From Sulfurospirillum diekertiae (GTDB taxonomy: Bacteria; Campylobacterota; Campylobacteria; Campylobacterales; Sulfurospirillaceae), in NCBI RefSeq assembly GCF_002162315.1, contig NZ_CP021416.1, positions 310,001 to 374,000 of the forward strand: DNA of 64,000 nucleotides, read 5' to 3'. Made by a program: the position numbers and the translations under genes. Each line of letters starts with the position of its first letter. Position 1 is the first letter of the stretch. Shown piece after piece: positions 40,889-58,805 of the stretch. The notes under the pieces are model-generated. The model was given only the letters and a program-made list of their open reading frames with translations, was not told where the DNA came from and searched no databases.

Positions 40889-41053
40889 ATCTAGCATACT
40901 CCAAAATAGTCTAAAAATCCCTATAAAATCGGCATTCTTTCGCAAATATTCATCTAATACAATACAACGCAATTTAACCCAAACTAAGAGTCAAAGTAGT
41001 AATATTGGTAGTAATTTTTGATAATTTCTACTTTTCTAAGGAGAATGACTACT

Positions 41054-42265
41054 ATGGCATCAAAACTCCTGAAAGACTTACAAGTACGTAATGCCAAGCC
41101 TTTAGAGCAAGATTACAGACTTACAGATGGCGAAGGCTTATATCTTCTCGTGAAACCCAATGGTAGTAAACTTTGGCGCTACAACTATTCTTTTGAGAAC
41201 AACAAGTATGTCTATTCGATTGGGAAATACCCTGAGATCAGCCTTGAAAGAGCAAGGATTTTACACCAAAATGCGATTAGACTTAAAGCAGATGGCATTA
41301 ACCCTGTTGATCAAAAGCGAAAAGCGAAACTAGAGAAGAAACTAGCTACGGTTAATACCTTTAAAGCTATTGCAAAAGAATGGCTTGAAAAGAAAAAGAG
41401 GGAATTAGCAGAAAAGACTTTTGAGGGCGTTGAGCGGAGGGTTGAAAAGAATCTTTATCCGATTTTGGGTGATATAAATATTCGTGAAATCAAGAAGCAA
41501 GACGTTGCAAGTGCTTTAAAAATTGCAGATTTACGTAGCCCTGAAGTAGCTAGCCGCTGTTTAGGCTATGCTAAAAATATTTTCGAGTACGCAGAAGATT
41601 TAGGGGTTATTGAGTTTAGCGTTATATCTTCTATGACAGCTGGTAAATTTTTAACCAAATATGAGAATGAAAGATTCGCACACATTAAAGACCCGAAAAG
41701 ATTAAAAGAGCTTTTAATTGCAATTGATTCATATTCTGGTGAATATGTTGTTAGACAGCTTTTGAGATTATTGCCATTAGTTGCTTTACGTCCAACCGAA
41801 GCCAGGGCTGCAACATGGAATGAAATCGACTTTGAAAAAAAGATTTGGTCTATCGGTAAAGAGCGTATGAAAATGAGAAAGGATCATATCGTACCCCTTT
41901 CATCCCAAGCATTAAAAATTTTAGAAGAACTGCATCCTTACACAAAAAACAGTAAATATATTTTTCAAAGCCCTCGAAAATCGGATACTCCGTTATCGGA
42001 TAATTCTATCAACAAGGCCTTGTCAATTTTAGGCTTTAAGGACGAACAAACCGGACACGGTTTTCGCCATATTTTCAGCACAACGTGCCATAGCAATTTA
42101 AGGGAGCATCAATTTGATTCTCTTGTTATTGAAGCATGTTTATCGCATAAAGATAAAAATAAAGAACGTGACGTATATAATGGTGCTAAATATATACCCG
42201 AGAGAATGCAATTGATGCAATGGTACGCAAATTATTTGGATGATTTGAAAAATAGCAAGAATTAA
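41054..42265 (+). CDS. Tyrosine recombinase/integrase, P4 family (DUF4102 N-terminus)
   Basis: A 403-residue integrase. Residues 1-85 form the DUF4102 arm-binding domain (LTDGEGLYLLVKPNGSKLWRY). The catalytic residues are Arg246 in ALRPTEARAATW, His335-Arg338-His339 in TGHGFRHIFST, and Tyr375 in DVYNGAKYIPER. The start at ATG 41054 has AAGGAG about ten bases upstream; the open frame continues to 41018 without need. It catalyses site-specific insertion at the adjacent tRNA-Asn. The position next to attL and pointing inward is standard for tRNA-targeting islands. Confidence 0.96.
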   Translation: MASKLLKDLQVRNAKPLEQDYRLTDGEGLYLLVKPNGSKLWRYNYSFENNKYVYSIGKYPEISLERARILHQNAIRLKADGINPVDQKRKAKLEKKLATVNTFKAIAKEWLEKKKRELAEKTFEGVERRVEKNLYPILGDINIREIKKQDVASALKIADLRSPEVASRCLGYAKNIFEYAEDLGVIEFSVISSMTAGKFLTKYENERFAHIKDPKRLKELLIAIDSYSGEYVVRQLLRLLPLVALRPTEARAATWNEIDFEKKIWSIGKERMKMRKDHIVPLSSQALKILEELHPYTKNSKYIFQSPRKSDTPLSDNSINKALSILGFKDEQTGHGFRHIFSTTCHSNLREHQFDSLVIEACLSHKDKNKERDVYNGAKYIPERMQLMQWYANYLDDLKNSKN

Positions 42266-42469: not shown

Positions 42470-45128
42470 ATGACTGTCTTAGAAATAGAAAATAATCTTC
42501 ATAATCTAGTAGCAAATCTTGACAAAGAAAACTTCATCTTCGAGCTACTCTTAGCATACGGTATCCCAAAATCAACCATCAAACGACTGCAAGGAAGCGA
42601 TCACGACAAACTTACATCATACGGTGAACTTGTCATGAGAAAAAAACTTTTTTTCAAAGTGACGGATAATGAACTTCATGCCACGATAGATGAACTTAAA
42701 TCTTCAAAAGAAGTTCTTAAACACTTACCAAGATTTGTTCTTGTAACAGACTACGAAACACTCCTTGCCTATGACGTTAAAACGGAAGATAGCCTCGATA
42801 TCGAACTCTTAAACATTATCAATCATTACGATTTTTTCTTGCCTCTCGCAGGGATGGAAAAAACTACCTTTACCGATGAAAACCCAGCCGATGTCAAAGC
42901 CTCACTCAAGATGGCAAAACTCTATGATGAGCTTCAAAAAAACAACCGCTTTGAAATCAAAGAGGAAGTTCACTCTTTGAATGTCTTTCTCACAAGGCTT
43001 TTGTTTTGCTACTTTGCTGAAGATACCAACATCTTCCCTGACAACCTCTTTACCTCTTCACTCTCATCGCACACGCAAGTGAACGGGAGCGATTTGGATG
43101 CTTACTTGCAAAGACTTTTTACCATTTTCAACACACCAAACACAAAAAGAGAGCCAAACACACCCGCATACCTAAACGCATTTCCTTATGTCAATGGCGG
43201 ACTTTTTGCTTTACATGTAAAGCTTCCGACTTTTACCACTCGTTCACGCTCCCTCATGCTAGAAATCGGAAAGTTAAAATGGTCACAGATAAATCCAGAC
43301 ATCTTTGGAAGTATGATACAAGCAGTTGTTACCCCTGAACACCGTGGTGGAATGGGCATGCACTACACCTCTGTACCCAACATCATGAAAGTCATCGAAC
43401 CGCTATTTTTAGATGAACTCTATGTCGAATTTGAAAAAAGTTATGAAAGCAAAACCAAACTTAAAGCTTTACATGTAAGGCTCTCAAAACTCAAAATCTT
43501 TGACCCAGCGTGTGGAAGCGGAAACTTTCTCATCATCGCCTATAAGAAACTAAGAGAACTTGAAATGAGCATCTTGCAACGCATAGACACATTAAGCAAA
43601 GAGCGGAGTTTTGTCTTTAGCGAGATAAAACTAACACAATTTTACGGCATAGAGCTAGACGATTTTGCACACGAAGTAGCAATGCTTTCTCTTTGGCTCG
43701 TCGAACATCAGATGAACTTAGAATTTTACAAAGCATTTGGGAGAACAAGTCCTAGTTTACCTCTTCATGACGGAGGAAATATTGTTCATGGAAATGCTAC
43801 AAGGTTGGATTGGGAAGAAGTTTGTCCTAAAAATGTTGGGGATGAGATATATGTTTTGGGAAATCCACCGTATTTAGGCTCAAGTATGCAGAACAAAAAG
43901 CAAAAAGAAGACATGGCATCTGTTTTTCAAGGTATCAAGAATTACAAAAACTTAGATTACATAGCATGTTGGTTTTATAAAGGTGCAAAATATATACAAA
44001 ACTCAAATACAAAATTAGCTTTCGTAACGACAAATTCTATCGTACAAGGTGAACAGGTTGCAATGTTGTGGCTTCATATTTTTAAGTTAGAGATTGAAGT
44101 GTTTTTTGCTCATCAATCTTTCAAATGGACAAACAATGCTAAAGGAAATGCCGGTGTTACTGTTGCAATTATCGGATTAAGAAACTGTTCTGATGCCGAT
44201 AATAAATATATCTTCAATGGTTCGATTAAGCAAAAAGTTAAACATATCAATCCATATCTAACTTCTGTCAATGTCTCTGTTGTGACAAAGCGAACAAAAT
44301 CTTTATCGAAATTACCACTTATGGAATACGGAAATAAAGCAGTTTATGGAGAACCTTTGATTCTTGAAAAGCAAGAAAAAGAGCGTATTCTTAGTGCATT
44401 TCCAGAAGCTAAAAATTTTATAAGACCGCTTAAAGGAGCAAAAGAGTTTTTAAACGGCTTAGAGCGTTGGGTAATTTGGATTGAAGATAAAGACCTGTCG
44501 TTGGCACAATCTATTTCCCTTATAAATGAACGAATTGAAAAAGTAAAAACTCTTCGGCTTTCAAGTAACGACAGCGGAGCGCAAGAATTGGCTCAATACT
44601 CTCATCGTTTTAGAGATACAAAAACTTCTAAAACGACATCCTTGATTGTGCCGCTTACAACATCTGAACGAAGAAAATATATACCAACTGGATTTTTATC
44701 ACAAGAAACGATTTTAACCAATGCAGCCAATGCAATTTACGATGCTGAACCTTGGATATTTGGAGTTATATCATCATTAATGCACATGGTTTGGATGCGA
44801 ACTGTTGCAGGAAGATTAAAAACAGATTATCGTTATTCATCAGCACTTGTTTACAACACCTTCCCATTCCCAAATATCTCACAAAAACAAAAAGACGAAA
44901 TCACCGAGCTTGTATTTGGCGTACTCGATGAGCGAGAAAAACACAGCCAAAAAACCCTAGCCCAGCTCTACGACCCAAACAAAATGCCAGAAGGCTTAAA
45001 AAAAAGCCCACCACGCCCTAGACAAAGCCATAGAACAATGCTACCGCCCCAAACCATTCGAAACCGATGAAGAAAGACTAGAGTACCTTTTTAGGATGTA
45101 TGAAGAGATGACAAAGGGCAAGAAATGA
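42470..45128 (+). CDS. Class I SAM-dependent DNA methyltransferase (type IIG/IIL-like), C-terminus shifted by one A-run indel
   Basis: About 885 residues after correction. Motif I DPACGSGNFL lies at 345-354 and catalytic motif IV NPPY at 465-468, so it is an N6-adenine enzyme. The N-terminal about 130 residues (RFVLVTDYETLLAYDVKT; Asp94, Asp102-x-Lys104) could hold a PD-(D/E)xK nuclease site, as in single-chain restriction-modification enzymes, but this is weak. The literal frame ends at 45070; deleting one A from the A8 run at 44998-45005 restores HHALDKAIEQCYRPKPFETD to a TGA at 45126-45128. That TGA overlaps the next ATG (ATGA). It carries two exact TTACATGTAA copies, unlike its neighbours. 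Confidence 0.85.
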
Positions 45129-48100
45129 GTAAAATAAATCAAATTGAAAAAGCACTTCAAGAAATTGATGCTACAAAATTTCATAAGCTTTTAGATGCAT
45201 ATTTGACAAAAAAAATATCTGCACCTCATTCTAATGGTACAAAACTTGGGGAAGACAAACCAATAAAAGGTACACCTGACAGTTATATTGTTTTAGAAGA
45301 TGGAAAATATATATTTATTGAATATACTGCACAGAAAACCAATATTGTAGAAAAATTTTTAAAAGATTTAGAAAAATGCTTTGATGAAGAGAAAACAGGT
45401 ATAAAAGTAGTACAAATAAATAAAATTGTACTTGCATGTAATTCTGATTTAAATCCACAAGAGATAAAACAATTTATAGATTATTGCAGCTCAAAAAATA
45501 TTACATGTGAATTTATTGGAAATTCATATTTAGCGAATGATTTATTTAGTAATTATCCAAATATAGCTAAGGAATTTTTAGATATCTCGATAGATACTGG
45601 TCAAATTCTTGATTGTGTAGAGTTTATAGATGCTTATGAAAAGAACAAATTTTCAACATCACTTAATACAACATTACAATTTAGAGATGTAGAAATTCAA
45701 AATTTAAGAGAATCATTAGCAAATAATCAAATCACTTTTATTACTGGTGCCGCAGGAGTTGGTAAAACGAAATTGGCGATAGATATTAGTTCTTTATATG
45801 CTAAAGAAAATGGATTTATTTTTAAAGCTATTTTAAATAGAGGTGCCAATATTTTTGATGATTTAAAGGTATATTTTAATTCTCAATCTGAACAGTATCT
45901 AATTTTTATTGATGATGTTAATAGAATTCATCTATCGTTAGAATACCTCTTTGAATATTATGGTGAAAAAATCAATCAGGGGACTATAAAAATAATTGCA
46001 ACAATTAGAGATTATGCAAAAGAAAAGTTATTTGATAAATTACCTAAAAGTATAAGTTATTATGAACTTGAATTAAAACCTTTAAGCGATGACTCAATTA
46101 AAAAAATTGTTGAGAAAGAATATAGTATTACAAATCATCTCTATCTTGAGAGAATTGCAGATATTGCTCAAGGTAATCCAAGATTAGCTTTAATGGCAGC
46201 ATCTATAGTTAAAAAGCAAAACAGATTAGATGCAATTTATGATGTGACAACATTATATGATGAGTATTTTTCTAGTATTAAAAAAGATATTGAAATATTT
46301 GAAAAAAATGATTTACTTTTGTTAAGTGTAGCAATCATTTCATTTTTTAGAATTATTGATAGAGAAAATACTCAACAAATTGATATGATAGAAAAAGCCT
46401 TTGATATTTCAATTGATGCGATATGGAAAAATATAGAAGAGTTACATCGCCTTGAAGTTGTTGATATGTATGAAAATAATGTCGTTAAAGTTTCAGATCA
46501 AATACTTTCTACTTATTTATTTTATAAAACTGTTTTTGTTGATAAAAAAATTAACATTGGCATTTTCTTAAAGCATTTTTTTCCTAGTTTCAAAGGAAAA
46601 TTTGTTGATGCTTTAAATCCATTGTTGAGTTCCTTTGATACAAATCTCATATTAGAAGTATTGCGTGAACCAGTTAATAATTTATGGGGTGAATCCCTTT
46701 CAAATAAACAGCACATTTATGAAGTGATAAATACATTTTGGTTTTTAAAACAAACAGATATTTTGATTTATTTTTCAGAGGCAATTGAACAATTAGATAA
46801 TGTAGAAATAGATGCTGAACCACTTGATATTTGGAAACAAATTAATACAAATCAAACTGATGAGATTTTAAATAAACTTTCTTTATTTAGGCATGATAGT
46901 TTAGAAAATATGAAAATTTCTATCGAATTAATTATTACGTACTTAACTAAAGTACCATCAAAAATATATGAAGTTATTATCGTACTAACTAAAAATTTTG
47001 GAATCAAGTATGATAGCTATCGATACAATTATTCTAAAGAAAAAATTTTAATCGACACTTTATGGAACTTTACTGAACATGGAAAGAATCAATTATTAAC
47101 GAGATTGTTTATTAGGGTTTGTAGTGAATTTTTAAAAACCGAGTTTGAAGAAAATAAAATGAAAGGTCATAATTTTATCATATCTCGTTATAAACCTTTT
47201 GAAACAGAAAATTTGCAAGAACTAAGAAATGATATTTTTGAAAAATTAGATATATTGTTTTCTAGTGGAAACTTTTTAGGAGACTTGGAAAACTTAATTC
47301 AAAAATATCCATCAGGGATTAGTTATAGTGCTGATGTGAGCAATGTAGAAAAATGGGATGTTCAAAATATTTTAAATTTAATAGAAAAATATTTTGATTC
47401 AAGTATATATAGACATTGTCAAATTGTACAAAATCTATTAAAAAGTTTTGATGGGCATAAACTTGTTTATGATACTAGTATCAAAGAAACTTTTAAACAT
47501 CAAGCATATGAATTAAAAAAACTACTTTTTTTAAATGATGTAGATATTTCATTAGAGCAACCAAGGGACAAAGAAGAAAAAACAGATTGGGATAAAATAC
47601 GACAAATAAAACATGACAGATTAGCTGATTTTGTAAAAGATTATACTTTAAGTGATTGGCTACAACTTTTTGATTCGTGTAAGTTGTTTTTTGCAGAGCA
47701 AGGAAGAGATGCTTATAATCTAAAAAGTAGTTTGAATGAGTTATTTCACATAATTGCTCATAAAAATGAAACTCTTTATATTGATATACTAGAAAAATAT
47801 CTTGAGTTAGGTGATCCATTTTTATTAAATTTGAATATGTCAGATTTAATAAAAATTGTTGGAAAAGAGAAAGCCTTTGAATTCATAAAGAAATATTCTT
47901 TTCAAGCTCAAGAAACATGGTTATTTAATCTTTTTATAGCAATTGATGAAAGCAAAATTACTTCGAAAGAGGCTGAATCATTATTAGAACTTTATAAAAC
48001 TTCTAGTTATAGGAGCATGCCTTCTCATTTAGATTATTTAATCAAATATTGTACAGTAGATGAAAATATTTTTTTAGAAATAATGACCATTTTGGTTAAC

Positions 48101-48904
48101 AGGGCAGAAAATGAAGACAATAGATTTGTAGATACTTTTTCTATAATTTTTAATCCATTTACCGATATTTTTAAACTTCTTGACCAATATATATATTCAG
48201 ACATAGTATTATTTAAAAAAGCATATTTATTTTGTTTGAATTGTGAAAATCATTTTGACTATGACATGATGGCTTTTAACAAATTGATTAACTTTGATAT
48301 TAATTTTGTTGATAATTATATTGTTTATATTCTAAATAGCCATGACAAGTCAATAAGTTCTCATGATATTCACAATGATTTTTCATTAATTTGGAAGAGA
48401 GATGACTATCAAAAAATCTTTCTTAGAATCATCGAAGTGATTTATAGCTTAAAAACTAAGCAACTTGTTTGGAGAAAAGGTGAATTGCTCAAGGTCTTTT
48501 TTATAAATCGTGAAAATCAAGGTGAAATTGAAAATAGAGCAGATAGCTTAATTAAAAAATATATTGACTTGTATTTTAGTGATAATAAAAAAATTATTTT
48601 TATATTTGAATTAATAAGTGAGTTTAGCGAAGAAAGAAAAATAGCTCTTATATCTTATTTCATCGCTAGAAATGATTCTTTTGAATTATTTAAGCAATTA
48701 TCATTAGAGCCAATGATGCAAAGTTGGAATGGTAGCAGAATACCATCTCTACAAAAAGAGATTGATTTTTTTACTTCATTACTTTCTTTGATGACAACAG
48801 CCCCTTTGCTTAGACATAAACAAAAAATACAGCAGAGTATAGATTTTTTAAAACAAGATATACAAAGAGAAAGAAAAAGTGACTTTATGAGAGATGATTA
48901 TTAG
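45125..48904 (+). CDS. Large STAND-type P-loop NTPase with nuclease-like N-terminus
   Basis: A 1259-residue protein. Residues 49-71 read GTPDSYIVLEDGKYIFIEYT followed by AQK, the shape of a PD-(D/E)xK nuclease core (Pro51-Asp52, Glu66) with Thr68/Lys71 in place of a standard ExK. The NTPase part has Walker A GAAGVGKT (208-215), Walker B LIFIDDVNRI (Asp263-Asp264), sensor IIATIRDYAKEK and a GNPRLALMAAS helix as in STAND ATPases. The remaining about 750 residues are helical and probably sense a trigger. This is the layout of Avs-like antiviral STAND proteins, though I cannot name a type. It is very AT-rich and overlaps the methyltransferase stop by ATGA. Confidence 0.8.
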   Translation: MSKINQIEKALQEIDATKFHKLLDAYLTKKISAPHSNGTKLGEDKPIKGTPDSYIVLEDGKYIFIEYTAQKTNIVEKFLKDLEKCFDEEKTGIKVVQINKIVLACNSDLNPQEIKQFIDYCSSKNITCEFIGNSYLANDLFSNYPNIAKEFLDISIDTGQILDCVEFIDAYEKNKFSTSLNTTLQFRDVEIQNLRESLANNQITFITGAAGVGKTKLAIDISSLYAKENGFIFKAILNRGANIFDDLKVYFNSQSEQYLIFIDDVNRIHLSLEYLFEYYGEKINQGTIKIIATIRDYAKEKLFDKLPKSISYYELELKPLSDDSIKKIVEKEYSITNHLYLERIADIAQGNPRLALMAASIVKKQNRLDAIYDVTTLYDEYFSSIKKDIEIFEKNDLLLLSVAIISFFRIIDRENTQQIDMIEKAFDISIDAIWKNIEELHRLEVVDMYENNVVKVSDQILSTYLFYKTVFVDKKINIGIFLKHFFPSFKGKFVDALNPLLSSFDTNLILEVLREPVNNLWGESLSNKQHIYEVINTFWFLKQTDILIYFSEAIEQLDNVEIDAEPLDIWKQINTNQTDEILNKLSLFRHDSLENMKISIELIITYLTKVPSKIYEVIIVLTKNFGIKYDSYRYNYSKEKILIDTLWNFTEHGKNQLLTRLFIRVCSEFLKTEFEENKMKGHNFIISRYKPFETENLQELRNDIFEKLDILFSSGNFLGDLENLIQKYPSGISYSADVSNVEKWDVQNILNLIEKYFDSSIYRHCQIVQNLLKSFDGHKLVYDTSIKETFKHQAYELKKLLFLNDVDISLEQPRDKEEKTDWDKIRQIKHDRLADFVKDYTLSDWLQLFDSCKLFFAEQGRDAYNLKSSLNELFHIIAHKNETLYIDILEKYLELGDPFLLNLNMSDLIKIVGKEKAFEFIKKYSFQAQETWLFNLFIAIDESKITSKEAESLLELYKTSSYRSMPSHLDYLIKYCTVDENIFLEIMTILVNRAENEDNRFVDTFSIIFNPFTDIFKLLDQYIYSDIVLFKKAYLFCLNCENHFDYDMMAFNKLINFDINFVDNYIVYILNSHDKSISSHDIHNDFSLIWKRDDYQKIFLRIIEVIYSLKTKQLVWRKGELLKVFFINRENQGEIENRADSLIKKYIDLYFSDNKKIIFIFELISEFSEERKIALISYFIARNDSFELFKQLSLEPMMQSWNGSRIPSLQKEIDFFTSLLSLMTTAPLLRHKQKIQQSIDFLKQDIQRERKSDFMRDDY

Positions 48905-48943
48905 AAAAAAAGCAAAAAAAAGAGATGAAAAAAGAAAAAACAC

Positions 48944-49444
48944 ATGCAAAAAATAGCCAACCTGAACATCTATATAGGTACAAAAGAGGAGTACCGCATG
49001 GCGGTAAGCCAAGGTATGAAAATCGTCTGTGCACTCAACCGTGCCAATGGCTTTGTGACACATCAGTCACAGGTGGGTTGGAGCGGTAGAGGGTGTAACA
49101 AGGACAATCCTTACTATCTCTACAAAGAGGAAGATGATGCTATTTATCTAAACATGATTGATGGAGATGACCCAAAATATGTAAACGATGAAATGATAGA
49201 TGCGGCTTTAGACTTTATTAAACGGCATTTGGATAATGATATGCCCGTCTTTGTGTATTGTAGTTTAGCAGAGTCGCGAAGCCCTTCTATCGTACTTATG
49301 TATATGCTAGAGCACGGTCATATCGAAGCAACAAACAATGCTTTGAGAGAGTTCAAAGATAAATTTTATGCCAACTATCAGCCCAAAAGAGGCAATGTGG
49401 AGTATATTGTAAAAAGATGGCTAGGCAAATTGATCAAGGAGTGA
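48944..49444 (+). CDS. Dual-specificity protein phosphatase-like protein
   Basis: A 166-residue protein with the Cx5R phosphatase loop VYCSLAESRSPSI (Cys106, Arg112). The upstream acidic stretch NMIDGDDPKYV could supply the general-acid Asp. The N-terminal YIGTKEEYRMAV / GMKIVCALNRANG pattern is that of compact DSP domains. It could dephosphorylate protein or another phospho-compound; the target is unknown. Similar small phosphatases are found next to methyltransferase/helicase genes in islands. The RBS is poor and purine-rich. The gene ends six bases before fic. Confidence 0.8.
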   Translation: MQKIANLNIYIGTKEEYRMAVSQGMKIVCALNRANGFVTHQSQVGWSGRGCNKDNPYYLYKEEDDAIYLNMIDGDDPKYVNDEMIDAALDFIKRHLDNDMPVFVYCSLAESRSPSIVLMYMLEHGHIEATNNALREFKDKFYANYQPKRGNVEYIVKRWLGKLIKE

Positions 49445-49450
49445 AATAAT

Positions 49451-50587
49451 ATGAATATAAAAGATTTTAAATCAGGTACGCTGAGACAAGAGTATCAATA
49501 TAAAAGTTTTTTGCCAGAATTTATCAATCATACTTTTACATGGGATGACCCTCAAATCAATACTATGCTTGAAAATGCAACTAGAGCACTTGGTGAACTT
49601 AACGCTTTTACGAGGATTGTACCAAATGTAGATATGTTTATACAGATGCATATCACAAAAGAAGCGAATACATCAAGTAAGATAGAGGGCACAAAAACAG
49701 AGATGGATGAAGTGCTTATCGCAAAAGAGCAGATAAATCCTGAAAAAAGAGATGACTGGCAAGAGGTACGAAACTATATTGATGCTATGAATACTGCTAT
49801 CAAAGAGCTTGAAAGTTTACCTATCTCGAATCGTCTTATCAAAAATATTCATGCAATTTTGCTCAATAGCGTAAGAGGTGAAGCAAAACAGCCGGGTGAA
49901 TTTAGAAGATCTCAAAACTGGATAGGTGGTGCTAGTTTAGCAACAGCTTATTATATTCCACCCCATCACAATGAAGTTGGGGATCTCATGAGTGATTTGG
50001 AAAAATTTTTGCACAACGAAGAGATATTTGTGCCGCATCTTATAAAAATAGCAATTGCTCACTATCAGTTTGAGACGATCCACCCATTTTTGGACGGGAA
50101 TGGGCGTATCGGTAGACTGCTCATAACACTGTATTTAGTGAGTAAAGGATTACTTAGAAAACCATCTTTGTATCTCTCTGATTTTATCGAAAAAAATAAA
50201 TCAGCTTACTATGAAGCACTGACAAAAGTAAGAGCAGATAATGATTTGATTCATTGGATAAAGTTTTTTCTTGAAGCAGTGATTGTTACTGCCAATAATG
50301 GCGTACAAACGTTTCAAAATATTTTGAGTCTCAAACAAGAGATGGATACACTGATAGTAGGATTTGGTAAAAAGGCACACAATGCGAGCAAATTGATAGA
50401 GTTCTTATATCAAAGGCCTATTATCTCAATTAGTGAAATCATAGAGCCTTTGGAGATTAGTAAGCCTACGGCAAATACTTTAGTCAAAGAGTTTGAGTCA
50501 AAAGGTATTTTAAAAGAAATTACAGGATATGAGAGAAATAAACTGTTTGTATTTGATAGGTATTTGACAATATATAGTAAAAATTAA
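49451..50587 (+). CDS. Fic family protein (class II, with internal inhibitory motif)
   Basis: A 378-residue protein. The Fic core HPFLDGNGRIGR (211-222) matches HPFx(D/E)GNGRxxR exactly, so AMP or other nucleotide transfer to a target hydroxyl is expected. The inhibitory motif SSKIEG lies at 75-80, N-terminal to the core, which makes it class II (self-inhibited). The C-terminus (about 320-370) is a winged-HTH-like tail (SISEIIEPLEISKPTANTLV). Its role here may be toxin-like or regulatory. It starts after the phosphatase by six bases, so the two are probably one operon. Confidence 0.93.
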   Translation: MNIKDFKSGTLRQEYQYKSFLPEFINHTFTWDDPQINTMLENATRALGELNAFTRIVPNVDMFIQMHITKEANTSSKIEGTKTEMDEVLIAKEQINPEKRDDWQEVRNYIDAMNTAIKELESLPISNRLIKNIHAILLNSVRGEAKQPGEFRRSQNWIGGASLATAYYIPPHHNEVGDLMSDLEKFLHNEEIFVPHLIKIAIAHYQFETIHPFLDGNGRIGRLLITLYLVSKGLLRKPSLYLSDFIEKNKSAYYEALTKVRADNDLIHWIKFFLEAVIVTANNGVQTFQNILSLKQEMDTLIVGFGKKAHNASKLIEFLYQRPIISISEIIEPLEISKPTANTLVKEFESKGILKEITGYERNKLFVFDRYLTIYSKN

Positions 50588-50592
50588 AGTCA

Positions 50593-50667
50593 TAAATTTT
50601 ACTAAGAGAATTTTATAGTTAAAGTTAGGATCCTAAATTTTACTAAGAGAATTTTATAGTTAAAGTT
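50593..50667 (+). repeat. Two 34-bp direct repeats between fic and the helicase gene
   Basis: TAAATTTTACTAAGAGAATT continues as TTATAGTTAAAGTT in both copies, at 50593-50626 and 50634-50667, period 41. They fill the 110-bp spacer before the helicase. Possible roles are a regulator's tandem binding sites or a duplication trace. Confidence 0.85.
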
Positions 50668-50698
50668 CGAGCCAATTTTTTGAATTAGAGAGGGATGA

Positions 50699-52621
50699 AT
50701 GACAAATATCATAGATGTAACTTATGGGCAAACAGGTGAGAGCAAAAAAACCAATAACTTTGGCATGAGGGATATGCAAGCAAAAGCTTACGAAGCTAGA
50801 AACGAGCAGTACCTTCTTCTTAAAGCTCCCCCAGCATCTGGAAAATCAAGAGCTTTGATGTTCATCGCTTTAGACAAACTTTACTATCAGAATATTGCCA
50901 AAGTCATCGTAGCTGTACCTGAGCGATCTATCGGCGGTTCTTTTGAAAAGACCGATTTAAAATCAAACGGTTTTTTTGCTTCATGGGAACCAAACCCTCT
51001 GTATAATCTTTGTACTCCCGGAGGAGAAAAGAGTAAAGTAGAAGCATTTAAAAAGTTTATGAACAGTGATGAAAAAATTCTGATTTGCACCCATGCAACA
51101 CTCAGGTTTGCCTTTAAAGAGCTAGATGATGCAAAATTTGATAATTGTGTACTAGCGATTGATGAGTTTCACCATGTCTCAGCTGATGGAGAAAACCAGC
51201 TAGGAGAGCTTATTCGCTCTGTTATGCAAAATTCTACTGCTCATATAGTAGCTATGACAGGTTCGTATTTCAGAGGCGATAGCGTACCGGTACTTATGGC
51301 TGAAGATGAGGCAAAATTTTCAAAAATAACCTATAACTACTACGAACAACTAAATGGTTATGAGTATTTGAAATCATTGGGCATTGGATATCACTTTTAT
51401 CAAGGGCGTTATACAAGTGCAATACACGAAATTTTAGACACTAATAAAAAAACAATTTTACACATTCCTAATGTCAATTCTGGTGAATCTACAAAAGATA
51501 AACACCGAGAGGTAGATACTATTTTAGATACTATCGGGACAGTGGAGCAGATTACTGAGGAAGGGATCATCATCGTTAAACGAAAAGGCGATGGTAAACT
51601 TCTTAAGGTAGCTGATTTAGTCAATGATGAACCAAAAGCAAGAGAGAAAGTCGTAACATACCTACGCAACATCAAAAATGTTGATGATATGGATTTGATT
51701 ATAGCCCTTGGTATGGCAAAAGAGGGTTTTGATTGGCCTTACTGCGAGCATGCTTTGACTGTTGGTTATAGAAGTTCCTTAACAGAGATCATTCAAATCA
51801 TTGGAAGAGCAACAAGAGATAGCAACAATAAAACTCATGCTCAGTTTACAAACCTTATAGCTCAACCTGATGCACAGGACTCTGAAGTCAAACTTAGCGT
51901 CAATAATATGCTCAAAGCCATTACAGCATCACTATTGATGGAACAAGTCTTAGCACCAAATTTTAAATTTAAACCGCGATTTGATGGCGATGATGAACCT
52001 AATCAAAAAGGTGAACTCAAAATCAGAGGTTTCAAAAAACCAACAAGCAAAAGAGTGGAAGATATTATCGAATCAGATTTGAATGATTTAAAAGCAGCTA
52101 TCTTGCAAGATGAAGTGATGATAAAAGCCATTCCGGGAAACCTTGATGCAGAAGTGATCAATCGAGTTTTGATCCCTAAAATTATCAAGGTTAAATATCC
52201 TGATTTGAATGATAATGAAGTGGAAGAGCTAAGGCAGCATGTCGTTGTTGATAGTGTCGTTAAAAATGGGCATATCATAGAAAGCGGTGATAAAAAATTT
52301 ATAAAAATGGCAGATAAATTTGTTAATATAGATGAACTTCATATTGATTTGATAGATCAAATCAACCCATTTCAAAGGGCTTTTGAAATCCTATCAAAAT
52401 CAGTGACGACGCATGTGCTTAAATTGATTCAAGAGAGTATTGAAGCAACAAGAATAGAAATGACACCGGAAGAAGCTATTATACTTTATAAAAAAATTCC
52501 TGTATTTAAAAGCGAGCATGGAAGAATGCCAGATTTAAACAGCAGTGATTTTACAGAAAAAAGAATGGCGGAAGCTCTTATTTATCTCAATAAGCTTCGA
52601 CGTGAGAAAGTCAATGGTTGA
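50699..52621 (+). CDS. DEAD/DEAH-box SF2 helicase family protein
   Basis: A 640-residue SF2 ATPase. Motif I is LKAPPASGKS (41-50), motif II AIDEFHH (153-159), motif III VAMTGSYF, and motif VI IIQIIGRATRD (364-374, QxxGRxxR-like). The C-terminal 220 residues have no name I can give. It resembles the translocase subunits of restriction systems. AGAGGG sits about five bases before the ATG. Its last codons overlap the next gene by eight bases (ATGGTTGA), which shows that they are made together. Confidence 0.9.
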   Translation: MTNIIDVTYGQTGESKKTNNFGMRDMQAKAYEARNEQYLLLKAPPASGKSRALMFIALDKLYYQNIAKVIVAVPERSIGGSFEKTDLKSNGFFASWEPNPLYNLCTPGGEKSKVEAFKKFMNSDEKILICTHATLRFAFKELDDAKFDNCVLAIDEFHHVSADGENQLGELIRSVMQNSTAHIVAMTGSYFRGDSVPVLMAEDEAKFSKITYNYYEQLNGYEYLKSLGIGYHFYQGRYTSAIHEILDTNKKTILHIPNVNSGESTKDKHREVDTILDTIGTVEQITEEGIIIVKRKGDGKLLKVADLVNDEPKAREKVVTYLRNIKNVDDMDLIIALGMAKEGFDWPYCEHALTVGYRSSLTEIIQIIGRATRDSNNKTHAQFTNLIAQPDAQDSEVKLSVNNMLKAITASLLMEQVLAPNFKFKPRFDGDDEPNQKGELKIRGFKKPTSKRVEDIIESDLNDLKAAILQDEVMIKAIPGNLDAEVINRVLIPKIIKVKYPDLNDNEVEELRQHVVVDSVVKNGHIIESGDKKFIKMADKFVNIDELHIDLIDQINPFQRAFEILSKSVTTHVLKLIQESIEATRIEMTPEEAIILYKKIPVFKSEHGRMPDLNSSDFTEKRMAEALIYLNKLRREKVNG

Positions 52622-53765
52622 GTTTTCATTAGATGAGATTTTAGCCGATGACCCACTAGGGCTTTTGAATGAGCAGAAAGCCACAACAAAAGCTTTAAAT
52701 GAAGATGATAGGCTTATTTCGAGTTTTGAAGAGATTAACACTTTTGTTGAACAAAATGGACATGAGCCTCAAAAATCGCCTAATATGCAGGAGCGTACTT
52801 TGTATTCAAGATTGCAAGGAATACGTGAAAACCCTGAAAAGATGAAGGCTCTTAAACCGTATGATCGATTGAATCTCCTGCAAGAAATTGAGATTAATTC
52901 CATTGATGATATTTTAAATAACGATGCATTTGGATTGCTTGGCGATGAGAAAGAGAATGACATATTTACATTGAAGCATATTCCAAAAGAACGTGAGCAG
53001 ACAGATTTCGTTGCACAAAGAAGACCATGTAAAAAATTTGATAAATATGAGCTTCTTTTTAAAGAAGTACACCAAGATCTAAAAAACGGTACAAGAAAAT
53101 TATCTAAATTTAACGAAAAGTTCTTTGAAGAAGGTAGCTTTTTTATTTTAAAAGGGGTGTTGGCTTATTTAGAAAAAATTGATGATCCAAAAAAAGATAA
53201 ATTTAATAAACTGGATTCCAGAACAAGGATTATCTTTGAAAATGGAACTGAATCAAATATGCTTTTGCGATCCTTTGGAAAGGGCTTGTATGAGGATGGA
53301 TATTTCGCAAGTCTACAAGATGATAGGGTACTAGATAAATTATCTCAAATTTCAGAAGAAGATAATAAAACGGGTTATATTTATATCTTGGAGTCTTTAA
53401 GTTCAGATACCAAAATTGCATCTATCAAAAACTTATACAAAGTTGGTTATTCAACAACTGAAGTCAAAGAAAGAATTAAAAATGCTGTTAATGAGCCGAC
53501 GTATTTGATGGCTCCCGTTAAAATTGTTAGTGTTTATGAAACCTATAATATGAACACACAAAAATTTGAACAACTTATTCATAAATTTTTTGGCAAAGTA
53601 TGCCTAAATATTGATATTTCTGGAGATGCTAGTAAACGATATACTCCAAGAGAGTGGTTTGTTGTGTCGCTCGATATTATTGAGAAAGCATTAGAACTTA
53701 TTATTAATGGTGAAATCATACACTATAGGTATGATGAAAAATCAGACAAACTAATTATGATTTAA
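52614..53765 (+). CDS. GIY-YIG nuclease family protein (T5orf172/MUG113 type)
   Basis: A 383-residue protein. The C-terminal third begins at TGYIYILES (254 onward) and has NLYKVGYSTTEVKERI, TYLMAPVKIVSVYET and KFEQLIHKFF, which follow the GIY-YIG fold of T5orf172-like nucleases (YIYI...YKVGxS.... R...). The N-terminal 240 residues hold two short similar pieces (DDPLGLL... NNDAFGLL...) and no other domain I know. With the coupled helicase it could form an effector pair that cuts DNA. I use the ATG at 52614; the frame opens 23 codons earlier inside the helicase. Confidence 0.88.
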   Translation: MVEFSLDEILADDPLGLLNEQKATTKALNEDDRLISSFEEINTFVEQNGHEPQKSPNMQERTLYSRLQGIRENPEKMKALKPYDRLNLLQEIEINSIDDILNNDAFGLLGDEKENDIFTLKHIPKEREQTDFVAQRRPCKKFDKYELLFKEVHQDLKNGTRKLSKFNEKFFEEGSFFILKGVLAYLEKIDDPKKDKFNKLDSRTRIIFENGTESNMLLRSFGKGLYEDGYFASLQDDRVLDKLSQISEEDNKTGYIYILESLSSDTKIASIKNLYKVGYSTTEVKERIKNAVNEPTYLMAPVKIVSVYETYNMNTQKFEQLIHKFFGKVCLNIDISGDASKRYTPREWFVVSLDIIEKALELIINGEIIHYRYDEKSDKLIMI

Positions 53766-53806: not shown

Positions 53807-54055
53807 TTATTTCGTAGCTTTTTTCACTTGAGGGATTAAATCTGTCACTTCCAAACCAAATTCAGAAGCAATTCTATAAAGGTGCTCAAGGTTATAACTG
53901 ACATCATGTTTACGGGTTTCTATTTTAGCCACATAGTTGGGTGATTTATGACCAAGGATTTGTGCTAATGCTAATTGGCTGATACCTCTTTTAGTTCTTT
54001 CAGCCTTAACATTTTCAACAATTTGATCCATAAAACGCTCAATCATTTTTTCCAC
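53807..54055 (-). CDS. Xre-family HTH transcriptional regulator
   Basis: An 82-residue protein with a Cro/C1-type helix-turn-helix (ERTKRGISQLALAQILGHKSPNYVAKIETRKHD, residues 19-51). It converges on the GIY-YIG gene and is divergent from the small secreted protein gene. Its own upstream region holds palindromes AAACACTTATAAGTGTTT (54121-54138) and a variant AAACACCTATAAGTTG (54073-54088), the likely operators. It probably represses itself and one side of the island. Confidence 0.9.
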   Translation of the reverse strand: MEKMIERFMDQIVENVKAERTKRGISQLALAQILGHKSPNYVAKIETRKHDVSYNLEHLYRIASEFGLEVTDLIPQVKKATK

Positions 54056-54138: not shown

Positions 54139-54191
54139 AATAAGCTCTTTTACGGTATCCTTTATCTATAAATTAGTCATAAGGAATGTTA

Positions 54192-54446
54192 ATGAAAAAG
54201 GTTCTTGTATCGTTGATTATGGTAGTTGGTTGTCTATTAGCAAGCGAAGGGCAAAAATCAGTCACAACCTGTCGTTTTGAGGCAAGACAGATTGGTGCAT
54301 TTGCTGATAGCCCAATGACCTGTTCGGGAGATTTTAAAAAATCATCAACCACACAAGAGCTTTACGGGGATGGATGGCGATTGATAAACTCCTATACCCA
54401 GAATAGTAATGTGTACCTTGTGTTTGAAAAGAACAAAAATCTGTAA
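54192..54446 (+). CDS. Small exported protein, unknown
   Basis: An 84-residue protein beginning MKKVLVSLIMVVGCLLASEG, a Sec signal peptide (a Cys lies in the hydrophobic part, but the context is not a clean lipobox). The mature part has two cysteines (TTCRFEAR, MTCSGDFKK), perhaps a disulfide. No family is recognised. I use ATG 54192 with AAGGA six bases upstream. It lies just after the Xre operator and so is likely under Xre control. Confidence 0.7.
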   Translation: MKKVLVSLIMVVGCLLASEGQKSVTTCRFEARQIGAFADSPMTCSGDFKKSSTTQELYGDGWRLINSYTQNSNVYLVFEKNKNL

Positions 54447-54458
54447 AGGAGAATAAAG

Positions 54459-54770
54459 ATGCTTTCCATGATTCGTGATTACCTCATTATGGTCTTGGCT
54501 AAAATCATTGTTGGGGCTTTCTTTGGTGGTTTAGTTTTGTTTGGATTTTTCATACTCTATTGGATCTTTCGTGATTATGCAATAGCCGTTACTACCATGA
54601 AAGCTACATTGACATGTGATGCTGCAAAATTTTTCTCATTATTGCTTCTTGTTGGATGCTTCTTTCATACAGCAGAGTATAAAAGCACTCCTAAAAAGTC
54701 AGAATTTAATACATGTAAATACCTTGATAAAGTCTTTTTTGAACACGACACAGGTATAAGGCAATGGTAA
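54459..54770 (+). CDS. Small membrane protein, unknown
   Basis: A 103-residue protein with two hydrophobic helices (about 8-38 and 58-70). AAAGGAG lies upstream of the ATG. It starts 12 bases after the exported protein and its TAA overlaps the next ATG (TAATG), so the three genes are one operon. Nothing in it names a function. A one-mismatch copy of the palindrome lies inside at 54709. Confidence 0.65.
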   Translation: MLSMIRDYLIMVLAKIIVGAFFGGLVLFGFFILYWIFRDYAIAVTTMKATLTCDAAKFFSLLLLVGCFFHTAEYKSTPKKSEFNTCKYLDKVFFEHDTGIRQW

Positions 54771-55705
54771 TGAAACGAACACATATTCTTTTATCAAGCA
54801 TCATGACGGTAGTTTTCCTTTCTGGTTGTGCCACAACACCCTCACAACCTAATCCTTCCTCTTTGCAGCAAGCAACTTCTTTAAAAGAATACATTGCCCT
54901 CAAACGAGGTGGTGAGACAATAAACTACAATGTTATTGCCGAAAGAGAGCATCAATCAATTATTGAGTATCGAACCTACGATGAAGCAGTGAATGTGGCA
55001 GATGCTCGAGACATCATGGAAGTCCTTGATGATGCTAAAGGCTATTGTGAGAGCATCAAAGGGAAAAGTGTGTACGGTGATAAAGCAATTCAAGCTTTAA
55101 ATGCACGACCAACTTTGCTTAGTCTTGATTATGTGAGTTATAAAAGTGCCATAAGAGAACAAGGATTAGGAAAATACGAAGGATTTTACCAATGCCTCTC
55201 ACCCAATGATGGTTTTTCCATCGTTTCCATGAAAGATAACGTTGAGTTACAACAACGTGCCATTCTTGGCAATAAACGAGATCTAAAAGAGACCTATTCA
55301 CGTTTTTATCTGATTCAACACGATAAAGCACAAAGCCTTGGCTTAAAAACATGGCTAAAAGGCTCAAAATATGCCCAAATTTCAACGAAGTATACTTCGT
55401 TCGAGGATTTACTCGACTTGGAGAAAAATAGCTCTGTTTTTCCTTGGAGATACGAACGTATTACTGGAGCTCAGAAGTACTGCACCTATCATGGTGGTGA
55501 ATTCTTTGTTTCGAATGCCTTAACACAATTTAAACCTATTACGATGGATGAATATCTTTTTATGCGTTTAGAGACTATGAATCCAACAACCATCAATATT
55601 TTTATGAATCAAGAGACCTTTACATGTAAAAACAGTGCTAACCCTGCACAGAGCTTTACGTTGATACATACCGATAAACAACTGGAATACAAAAAAGGGG
55701 AATAA
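54770..55705 (+). CDS. Putative lipoprotein, unknown
   Basis: A 311-residue protein. The signal peptide ends at the lipobox FLSGC (Cys20), followed by ATTPSQPNPSSL. The mature protein shows no domain I recognise and no conserved catalytic motif. It starts one base into the stop of the preceding gene. It contains an exact TTACATGTAA (55620-55629). Because it is in an island, a surface or receptor-blocking role (superinfection exclusion) is possible but speculative. Confidence 0.75.
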   Translation: MKRTHILLSSIMTVVFLSGCATTPSQPNPSSLQQATSLKEYIALKRGGETINYNVIAEREHQSIIEYRTYDEAVNVADARDIMEVLDDAKGYCESIKGKSVYGDKAIQALNARPTLLSLDYVSYKSAIREQGLGKYEGFYQCLSPNDGFSIVSMKDNVELQQRAILGNKRDLKETYSRFYLIQHDKAQSLGLKTWLKGSKYAQISTKYTSFEDLLDLEKNSSVFPWRYERITGAQKYCTYHGGEFFVSNALTQFKPITMDEYLFMRLETMNPTTINIFMNQETFTCKNSANPAQSFTLIHTDKQLEYKKGE

Positions 55706-55779: not shown

Positions 55780-55902
55780 ATGACATGGTTTAATATCATA
55801 TTTGGCACATTATCTTTCGTTGTAGCTGTTCTAGCGATTGCTAAACTTCGTTATGAACTTGGTTATTCTAAGTACAGCCCTCAATACAAAGAGCATCAAT
55901 AA
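55780..55902 (+). CDS. Small 40-residue membrane peptide
   Basis: The translation is MTWFNIIFGTLSFVVAVLAI then AKLRYELGYSKYSPQYKEHQ, with one membrane helix (about 5-22) and a positively charged, Tyr-rich tail. AAAAGG lies nine bases before the ATG. It is short, but the signal, RBS and hydrophobic pattern support it. It could be a holin-like, toxin or regulatory peptide. Confidence 0.55.
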   Translation: MTWFNIIFGTLSFVVAVLAIAKLRYELGYSKYSPQYKEHQ

Positions 55903-56725
55903 TCTCAAAATCAATACTCTTCTAGAAGAAGTATGGTAAATCTCTTCTAAAGCTTCCTTTGAAAAAACATTCCTCCTAAAATAAAAATATTTCAACGATT
56001 TGCTAGTCATCTTTAGTTTGTACCTTTGTTATCACTCCAAAGTATTTGGTACATCACTATTCACTATCGTTCATATATAAGCCATTTTGGAAACAGAAAA
56101 AAAGAATTTTTGACAATTTTTATACACCTCTTTAGAGGTATATGCCCTTTTGGAAACATTTTATTTTATATGGAAACAGAGTAATATATATACCCTTTTG
56201 GAAACAAAATATTGATAGAAGATTTTAAGTAGCCTTGTGGTTAGTTTTTAAAGGTTATTTTTGACATAAATAAAGAAGCCTCCGTACATCACTATTCACT
56301 ATCGTTCATATATAAGCTATTTTTGTAACAAAATATTCATAGAAGATTTCAAGCATTGCAGTTAATTTTTTCAGAGAGGATTTTGAAGCCTTTATACAGC
56401 ACTATTCACTGTCGTTCATAATATAGGGGTTTTATTCCCAAAAACGATTTTAGATACTACCTCTTTAGAGGATATATGCATTTTATTCCCAAATAGTAAA
56501 ACACCTCTACGTAACTATATATAATATAGGCATTTTATTCCCAAAAATAAAATTCTTTAACAAATAAAATATTTTACACCTATAATCATTTACTCAATAC
56601 TTGAAATTTTTACTATATATTGTTCGTTTATTTAGTCTATATATTTACGTTAAATAGTATATATAAAAGGTAAATATTTGAGATATTTTTTAGTATAATT
56701 ACAAAAAGAGGTAAAAGGTTGGAAA
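55903..56725. repeat. 820-bp gene-free region with an iteron-like box array
   Basis: A 32-base leader, beginning TACATCACTATTCACTATCG and ending TTCATATATAAG, occurs three times: 56050-56081, 56285-56316 and (varied) 56395-56426. Each is followed by a box. Box 1 TTTTGGAAACA is at 56085, 56148 and 56196, with partial forms at 56171 and 56321; box 2 TTTTATTCCCAAA is at 56430, 56481 and 56533. A second leader, CCTCTTTAGAGG, occurs at 56127-56138 and 56460-56471, once before each box type. The layout resembles iterons of a replication origin or a set of operators. The last 100 bases hold a -10 box (56694-56699) for the recombinase. Confidence 0.7.
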
Positions 56726-57358
56726 ATGGCTCAAACGATAGGGTATATTCGTGTTAGTACCAATAATCAAGACTTCCAAAATCAACACCATGCTATTCTT
56801 TCCTATGTAAATCACAAGGGTTTAGGAAAAGTTTCGTTTGTGGAAGTTAAAATCAGCAGCAAAAAGAGTGAAGAAGATCGAAAGATCGATGAGCTTTTAA
56901 TAACCCTTCAACCCCATGATCATTTGATCGTCTCAGAATTAAGCCGTATCGGACGAAGCGTGGTGAATGTAGTCACTATTGTGAATCAACTTATTTCCAA
57001 GAAAGTCAATATTCATATCCTAAAAGAGCATCTTTTGATTGAGCCAGATATGCAAAATCCTTTCACTGACTTTCAAATCAATATTTTCTCCTCCTTTGCC
57101 CAATTAGAAAGAGATTTGATTAGCCAACGAACCAAAGAGGCCTTACATGCACGCAAAGCTAATGGTATTAAACTTGGAAAGCCCAAAGGCACAATTCAAG
57201 AGAGTATGTACGATAAAAATAAAGCTAAGATCAAAGAACTTTATGATTTAGGAGTCAGTCTCACAAATATTTCTCAAAAACATTTAGGATATGGCACGAT
57301 TAAAAGTTTGAGTGAATATATTAAAAACAAGCTAAATAGGAAGGAAAACCATGAGTAA
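56726..57358 (+). CDS. Serine recombinase (resolvase/invertase type)
   Basis: A 210-residue protein. The catalytic Ser11 is in IGYIRVSTNNQDFQNQ, with LIVSELSRIGRSV and FSSFAQLERDLISQRTKEAL in the catalytic domain, and a C-terminal HTH (residues about 165-205). It cuts and rejoins DNA at short sites; in a plasmid-like island it may resolve multimers or flip a segment. An imperfect AT-rich palindrome lies just upstream (about 56636-56668) and could be its res site. It overlaps the next gene by eight bases. Confidence 0.92.
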   Translation: MAQTIGYIRVSTNNQDFQNQHHAILSYVNHKGLGKVSFVEVKISSKKSEEDRKIDELLITLQPHDHLIVSELSRIGRSVVNVVTIVNQLISKKVNIHILKEHLLIEPDMQNPFTDFQINIFSSFAQLERDLISQRTKEALHARKANGIKLGKPKGTIQESMYDKNKAKIKELYDLGVSLTNISQKHLGYGTIKSLSEYIKNKLNRKENHE

Positions 57359-57581
57359 TGATCAAGTCTTAACTGTTATGTCAGATGAGTTTAAAGCGTC
57401 TTACGATTTTTATCAAGATTACGAGGATATGGTGATTCATAAAATTACCAGAAAAATTTTCAAAATTAACTTTGTTCACGGCATGGCACAGCTTGTTCCT
57501 GTATCCAATGAAAAAGCTATCAATAAAATAGAGTTTGGTATGCAATCGTTTGTTGAGATGCTAAGGAAGCAAGGGTTTTAA
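57351..57581 (+). CDS. Small hypothetical protein coupled to the recombinase
   Basis: A 76-residue acidic/basic protein (EFKASYDFYQDYEDMVIHKI) with no signal or membrane helix. It begins within the recombinase gene (8-base overlap) and is preceded by AAGGAAAA. No family is recognised. The coupling suggests a partner or regulator of the recombinase. Confidence 0.65.
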   Translation: MSNDQVLTVMSDEFKASYDFYQDYEDMVIHKITRKIFKINFVHGMAQLVPVSNEKAINKIEFGMQSFVEMLRKQGF

Positions 57582-58247: not shown

Positions 58248-58805
58248 ATGGCTGAACGACGAATGTTTGCGAGAACAATAATAGATAGTGATATATTTTT
58301 AGATATGCCAATATCTGCTCAATGCTTATATTTCCATCTTGGAATGCGTGCAGATGATGATGGTTTTGTTAATAATCCAAAAAAAATAATGCGCATGATA
58401 AATGCAAGGGATGATGATATGCGCATACTCTTCGTTAAAAGCTTTATAGTTGGATTTGAAAGTGGTGTAATCGTGGTAGCTCACTGGCGAATTCACAATT
58501 ATATTCAAAAAGATCGCTATAAACCAACAAATTTTTGCCAAGAAAAGGCTCTTTTATATGTTGCCGAAAATAATGTGTACTCTTTGGATACTAAATGTAT
58601 ACACGTTGGATACACAGGTAAGGATAGTCTAGAGTTAAATAGGCCTCTGCCTAGCAAAGTTGAAGAATTTGAAAATGAAATAGTAATAACATATCCTCGT
58701 TATTCGACAACTGTTGGATCAACATCTATATTAAAAAGGAAGCCTAACAAAAAAGGAAATACTTCTTCTTTTGAAGGGGAAAATCAAGGAATACCTCATG
58801 AATAA
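58248..58805 (+). CDS. Phage replisome organizer-like protein (N-terminal domain only)
   Basis: A 185-residue protein. MAERRMFARTIIDSDIFLDM, ISAQCLYFHLGMRADDDGFV and NNPKKIMRMI, HWRIHNYIQKDRYKPTNF are close to the N-terminal winged-helix domain of replisome organizers that I know chiefly from Firmicutes phages. It binds an origin and helps load the helicase. The usual C-terminal DnaD-like domain is missing, and a basic tail (LKRKPNKKGNT) follows. It may act on the iteron-like array. It overlaps the AlpA-like gene by eight bases. Confidence 0.78.
   Translation: MAERRMFARTIIDSDIFLDMPISAQCLYFHLGMRADDDGFVNNPKKIMRMINARDDDMRILFVKSFIVGFESGVIVVAHWRIHNYIQKDRYKPTNFCQEKALLYVAENNVYSLDTKCIHVGYTGKDSLELNRPLPSKVEEFENEIVITYPRYSTTVGSTSILKRKPNKKGNTSSFEGENQGIPHE

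Follow-up and report, generated by a model that had tools for sequence, protein, structure and literature searches.

Stacked modules resembling putative plasmid transfer origins in a chromosomal island of Sulfurospirillum diekertiae

The array and its genomic setting

The window analyzed here (a stretch of 64,000 nucleotides) comes from the genome of Sulfurospirillum diekertiae, a single contig of 2.88 Mb, and contains an island in which an array of repeated sites is flanked by plasmid-related genes. The following features are relevant (positions are those of the window; strand is given where assigned):

41018-42265: tyrosine integrase, beside tRNA-Asn
53807-54055, minus strand: XRE-type HTH regulator, 82 aa; one per array in every array-bearing genome of the genus
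54186-54446, plus strand: small protein, 86 aa; homologue of pCIG1485E RS08985 (41%, E 2e-18)
54459-54770, plus strand: membrane-type protein, 103 aa; its plasmid family abuts traG, the position of an entry-exclusion protein
54764-55705, plus strand: lipoprotein-like protein, 313 aa; homologue of pCIG1485E RS09080 (46%) and of a pHRV44 protein (41%)
55780-55902, plus strand: 40-aa ORF (MTWFNIIFGTLSFVVAVLAIAKLRYELGYSKYSPQYKEHQ) directly 5' of the array, conserved before most arrays of the genus
56049-56229, plus strand: module 1, box GGAAACA; P1 at 56055-56083 with box at 56085-56095, P2 palindrome at 56127-56138 with box at 56148-56158, extra box at 56172-56178, P3 with box at 56196-56206; the same module occurs in genome G005
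56281-56353, plus strand: module 2, a relic with box TGTAACA (TTTTTGTAACA) at 56320-56330; P1 leader joined to the P3 downstream flank
56394-56560, plus strand: module 3, box ATTCCCA; P1 at 56400-56428 with box at 56430-56442, P2 palindrome at 56460-56471 with box at 56481-56493, P3 with box at 56533-56545; site spacings 51 and 52
56063-56070, 56298-56305, and 56408-56415, plus strand: P1 core ACTATCGT; the core ACTn0-2TCGT is common to related arrays
56726-57358, plus strand: serine recombinase (Mpi-like), a neighbor and not a partner of the array
57351-57581, plus strand: 76-aa protein, homologue of plasmid proteins encoded beside WGR-domain genes
58248-58805: 185-aa protein matching phrog_8489 (positions 1-118 of 296), the N-terminal part of phage DnaD-like helicase loaders

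The array (56049-56560) comprises seven sites of one plan, in which an AT-rich TATA-like run leads, via a short GC spacer and TTTT, to a 7-nt box, and these sites are organized in stacked tandem modules. Each module has three sites (P1, P2, and P3) with their own fixed leaders, and the same box of approximately 7 nt ends all three: GGAAACA in module 1, TGTAACA in the collapsed module 2, and ATTCCCA in module 3. The P1 leader, CACTATTCACT[A/G]TCGTTCAT (P1: CACTATTCACT[A/G]TCGTTCA), occurs at 56055-56074, 56290-56309, and 56400-56419; these three copies are the only ones in the whole genome, and 0.01 would be expected in the window at 3 mismatches. The P2 palindrome, CCTCTTTAGAGG, was found in both full modules. 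The box of module 1, TTTTGGAAACA, is present at 56085, 56148, and 56196 (0.15 expected) and that of module 3, TTTTATTCCCAAA, at 56430, 56481, and 56533 (0.02 expected); the extra GGAAACA preceding P3 of module 1 is a further copy of the module's own box. For modules curated by hand, the boxes within a module differed at 0.38 of 7 positions, compared to 3.23 of 7 when the sites were dealt between modules (0 of 100,000 permutations). The array did not match any RNA family model in Rfam up to an E-value of 5.

An earlier note on this DNA had described a modular array with shared leaders and changing boxes. The array is real and larger than described there, and the leader and box copies were confirmed. 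Both of the box types that the note recognized (GGAAACA and ATTCCCA) are present, but it overlooked the third, TGTAACA, in the collapsed module, as well as the extra GGAAACA of module 1; likewise, leaders and boxes are indeed modular parts, but the unit is the three-site module and not a free mixing of the two.

The origin of the relic could be traced by comparison with G005. In the intact module of that genome, the first and last copies of TTTTTGTAACA are 110 bp apart, and the window from 56281 onward matches the predicted product of recombination between them at 80 of 80 positions, the relic being a 110-bp deletion product. Given this exact agreement with the prediction, the stacks change through recombination of their repeats.

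The genes 5' of the array have homologues scattered over two plasmids, pCIG1485E of Campylobacter iguaniorum and pHRV44 of Nitrosophilus labii. RS08985 of pCIG1485E (from a family of 84-86 aa) adjoins ParM and a gene of the SLL family, which is described below, and the plasmid homologues of the 313-aa lipoprotein are encoded upstream of pilin/traL genes. The window copy of the 103-aa protein matches its plasmid family weakly (E 0.002), while its island relatives match strongly (91% in L042 and 42% in G005). Judged by these plasmid positions, the membrane-type protein and the lipoprotein appear to resemble entry/surface exclusion factors. An exclusion lipoprotein, Sfx, is carried by IncC plasmids and unrelated mobilizable elements (PMC11493245). 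Besides these genes, defence-type cargo lies beside the island integrase (42470-53765), including a Type IIG restriction-modification enzyme, a SoFic-type Fic protein (49451-50587), and a helicase with weak PbeA/Cas3-like hits, which is overlapped by a protein with weak PDC-S57 hits.

Two neighbors on the 3' side were considered as partners of the array. The serine recombinase gene starts 180 bp downstream, as would suit a res/gix-type recombination site used by this enzyme; however, arrays without a serine recombinase nearby were found at four loci (L031, L032, L034, and L035) and a recombinase without an array at another (L033). Because of this inconsistent association, we rejected the recombination site, which we regard as highly improbable. 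The 185-aa protein, proposed as partner in the earlier note, could not be upheld either: it has no homologue on four array plasmids and, from its match to helicase loaders, is probably a phage fragment.

Related arrays in the genus and beyond

In our samples (one genome per species), arrays were detected in 6 of the 24 genomes of the genus, i.e., the window genome and five others. G005 contains three arrays, and at 2.537 Mb it has three full modules in tandem. Absence from related islands, which the earlier note had named as part of a refutation, was checked, and the array is present in them. Arrays of the same plan, with further box types, are also present in contigs named Sulfurimonas, Malaciobacter, and Campylobacter. 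No array was seen in small mobilizable plasmids, viral contigs contained neither the P1 motif nor a relative of SLL, and no description of these arrays was found in the open-access literature. The Sulfurimonas-type islands have a different layout from the modules of the window's genus, P1 being followed by an inverted box pair (GTCCCC..GGGAC; L042:1735-1830) and then by more TTACT boxes. Additionally, one contig binned as Flavobacteriaceae (L038) has an array region nearly identical to that of the C. iguaniorum plasmid and, judging by this near identity, is probably mis-binned.

Within the genus, the 82-aa XRE regulator goes with each of the eight arrays and is confined to the genomes that have one (p 7e-6). 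Between arrays with unlike boxes its identity is 78-99%, and it is therefore unlikely to be the protein that reads the boxes.

A tyrosine integrase is also present in other islands (L034 and L035). The window's island has its own integrase, and a search of the window genome for F-type TraU gave no hit, in agreement with an integrative mobilizable element, which has an integrase of its own and no conjugation machinery. The smallest island, in G012, consists of integrase, SLL, XRE regulator, small ORFs, and array; neither added cargo nor a relaxase was seen in it.

The SLL family and F-type conjugative plasmids

The array of pCIG1485E immediately precedes a gene for a protein of 198 aa, whose family (approximately 200 aa) was named SLL after its N-terminus. 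No family was matched by the pCIG1485E gene in NCBIfam or by the island homologue in Pfam and PHROGs, and no sequence relative was found in the PDB. The structure model, built from 4 sequences, is all-helical but of low confidence (mean pLDDT 64), and nothing stood out when it was compared by VIA-align, the best natural chain (Z 5.9, rmsd 2.8) covering 66 residues of one helical segment.

Among 72,556 records, SLL homologues were present on 31, all of them Campylobacter or Nitrosophilus plasmids of at least 70 kb; no small plasmid with SLL was found. Same-plan arrays precede SLL on pCIG1485E, a C. upsaliensis plasmid, pHRV44, Campylobacter T6SS plasmids, and several integrated conjugative elements. 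Indeed, most F-type conjugative plasmids and elements examined have an array upstream of SLL, each with its own box (CCTTACT, CGTTACA, AGGGAAAC, TGTACC, CATACC, CGTTACC, CACCCCC, or CTTCCCC), and in most conjugative loci tested SLL has F-type tra genes on one side and ParM on the other; at F-type loci it is otherwise flanked by TraG and the traA-L genes. The automatic repeat count upstream of SLL exceeded every shuffle at 6 of 18 loci, and no array was recognized at the SLL loci of G132, G108, and G310; the link between array and SLL is therefore common but not universal. At the class level, the P1 motif was found in 8 of 397 genomes, SLL in 24, and both in 5 (p 2.6e-5), with distances between motif and SLL of 0.2-2.2 kb in G264, G297, G213, and G281.

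The boxes vary between elements while the core stays. Of the arrays tested, 10 of the 12 conjugative ones and all four island ones contain ACTn0-2TCGT, compared to 0.43 expected among these 16 (the count includes close relatives and does not represent independent events); the arrays of G238 and G361 are without the core. A shared core is combined with subtype-specific sites of the accessory type, and the window array resembles that of F-type plasmids, which is itself only a putative oriT. When the boxes of the window were sought in potential helpers, only GGGAAACA of pHRV44, which contains GGAAACA, was retrieved; no helper with a box identical to TGTAACA or ATTCCCA was found. A search for a helper within the genus yielded an F-type element in G022, whose array is of another kind (two copies of AAATACCCCCTAAACTAGT and one of AAATACCCCCCAAACTAGT; L142:10620-10850) and which gave no SLL hit.

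No SLL gene was found in the window genome, and across the genus SLL occurs in 3 of the 8 array units, the other 5 being without it. Given that both SLL and F-type TraU hits are lacking in the window genome, a resident cognate operator or replicon is unlikely. This bears on a further suggestion of the earlier note, that of two competing operators or a set of tiny transcripts. TATA-like runs come shortly before the boxes, which on plasmids precede SLL, as might be expected if the boxes served an autoregulated gene as operators or drove tiny RNAs as promoters. However, promoter-like and terminator-like counts are at background (sigma-70-like sites at the level of shuffled sequences, and no terminator-like site), the genes on the 3' side vary from array to array or are convergent, and the XRE regulator is found, at 78-99% identity, with different boxes. 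Single modules could be operators, but the stacking of modules without a cognate gene downstream would be left unexplained; plain operators or tiny RNAs are therefore disfavored, and we consider them improbable.

A vegetative origin needs more attention. Here the boxes would be iterons, SLL a plasmid replication initiator, and the stack an oriV of several specificities for the excised island, with a DnaA box in P1. The boxes repeat in direct orientation within AT-rich DNA that precedes the gene of their presumed binding protein and adjoins parM; SLL, which matches no Pfam, PHROG, or NCBIfam family, might be an initiator of a new type; no Rep_3 initiator was found in the host genome of pCIG1485E; and P1 of the islands and of pCIG1485E contains CTATTCACT, which fits the epsilonproteobacterial DnaA box with its TTCAC core (PMC5043019). 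However, 7 of the 12 conjugative arrays lack this core, so the DnaA box was discarded as a conserved element. In addition, the sites are widely and unevenly spaced (46-65 in the majority of island modules, 43-148 in plasmids and other elements), unlike regular 17-22-bp iterons at helical spacing; all 31 plasmid records with SLL are of at least 70 kb; pHRV44 has a separate Rep_3 gene; and GC skew gives no origin signal at the array, although GC, purine, and keto skews on four plasmids are dominated by gene orientation and are not decisive. Overall, an oriV seems unlikely but deserves to be kept in mind. The earlier note had come near to the best-supported reading in proposing an origin with several sets of recognition sites, but the evidence favors transfer over replication.

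Two further observations concern possible replication regions of these plasmids. Downstream of SLL, Campylobacter T6SS plasmids have dense 11-nt repeats (GTTGTAGTTAA-like; L071:3937-4320), possibly a replication or partition site. On pHRV44, a set of Rep_3 and ParA (L105:37625-39481) and a set of SLL and ParM (L103:35916-38389) are approximately 40 kb apart, as if two replicons had fused.

Proposed function of the stacked modules

Based on sequence comparison, we propose with a probability of about 0.5 that the array is a stack of plasmid-derived oriT-type modules in a mobilizable chromosomal island that several helper plasmids could move in trans. SLL, absent from the window genome, is the likely partner of the array and would act as a relaxosome accessory factor that binds the 7-nt boxes, in a role comparable to those of SmpO, TraM, or MobI. 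The invariant core in P1 would be the side recognized by a conserved helper relaxase and is the best candidate for the relaxase/nic-side site, while the boxes would confer plasmid specificity. An island with several modules of different boxes might then be nicked and transferred by several helper plasmids, which would supply SLL where the island has no copy of its own, and modules would be gained and lost via homologous recombination between repeats. Weighing against this reading are the failure to identify a relaxase with confidence, the lack of helper boxes identical to TGTAACA or ATTCCCA, the poor model of SLL and its lack of a known domain, the DnaA-box-like sequence in P1 of islands and pCIG1485E, the two arrays without the core (G238 and G361), and the negative result for small mobilizable plasmids.

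Similar arrangements have been reported in staphylococci. The pWBG749 family combines an identical relaxase core with divergent subtype-specific accessory-factor sites, and among staphylococcal plasmids there are some with 2 or 3 acquired oriT mimics, each of another subtype (PMC8136818). The constant core, the divergent 7-8-nt sites that define subtypes (ossA-ossB, bound by SmpO), the accessory gene beside oriT, and the presence of several subtype mimics on one non-conjugative replicon (PMC8136818) all have putative counterparts here. Unlike these mimics, the present modules reside in chromosomal islands of Campylobacterota, in tandem within one block and with at least 3 boxes per module; unlike SmpO, SLL is all-helical in its low-confidence model and was not recognized as a ribbon-helix-helix protein, and the system is described here from sequence. 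The island also resembles the SGI1-family/MGI islands mobilized by IncC plasmids or SXT ICEs, in that it is integrated, has no secretion system of its own, is tied to F-type plasmids, and carries homologues of helper genes. SGI1 has its own oriT and MpsAB (PMC6414798), whereas the array described here is close in sequence to that of conjugative plasmids and is stacked. Iteron-type plasmid origins likewise combine AT-rich direct repeats, placed before the gene of a presumed binding protein, with a DnaA-box-like sequence (here in P1 of islands and pCIG1485E); they differ from the array in its wide and uneven spacing, its variable box with constant flanks, the lack of a known initiator family, and the DnaA core that is not conserved.

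The exclusion-type genes suggest a different use of the same sites. Copies of plasmid control sites might titrate SLL proteins as a decoy and, together with the traG-adjacent membrane protein and the lipoprotein, exclude or destabilize incoming plasmids. Such a role would fit the retention of arrays in the 5 of 8 units without SLL, the stacking of several specificities, and neighboring genes that are exclusion-type by plasmid position. Nevertheless, 3-5 sites per module are few for titration, the full three-site order and the core are conserved, which would be needless in a decoy, and the islands also possess an integrase and in some cases SLL, both expected of a hitchhiker. As the main explanation, we give the decoy only a small chance, but a decoy or exclusion role is compatible with the oriT reading, and both might apply.

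A bolder and rather doubtful extension of the oriT reading is that the islands of this family maintain a list of plasmid address tags that grows and is edited by recombination, and that the family both rides on and excludes several F-type plasmid families via a new origin-binding class, SLL. Each module would be the tag of one plasmid family, beside exclusion-type genes, and such lists would be widespread in Campylobacterota islands. Transfer origins of large F-type plasmids in Campylobacter are not annotated in the records examined. If the oriT reading is right, it could be predicted from sequence which plasmids move which islands in Campylobacterota, including Campylobacter, and SLL would be an undescribed protein family with its probable DNA sites. 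The matched box sets would then form a natural series for studying how origin specificity evolves; moreover, with the exclusion-type genes of the islands tied to the same plasmids, the question of hitchhiking versus defence would be directly testable.

With regard to the helper relaxase, none was identified with confidence on the array-bearing plasmids. The gene beside TraD encodes an HD domain only, with an additional GGDEF domain in two plasmids. This HD protein is a candidate for the helper relaxase, which would be an unusual one, or for a c-di-GMP-linked regulator of transfer. The HD-GGDEF fusions are encoded beside TraD on the F-type plasmids at L067:34113-36515 and L106:15924-18215, and the C. 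upsaliensis protein contains HD only.
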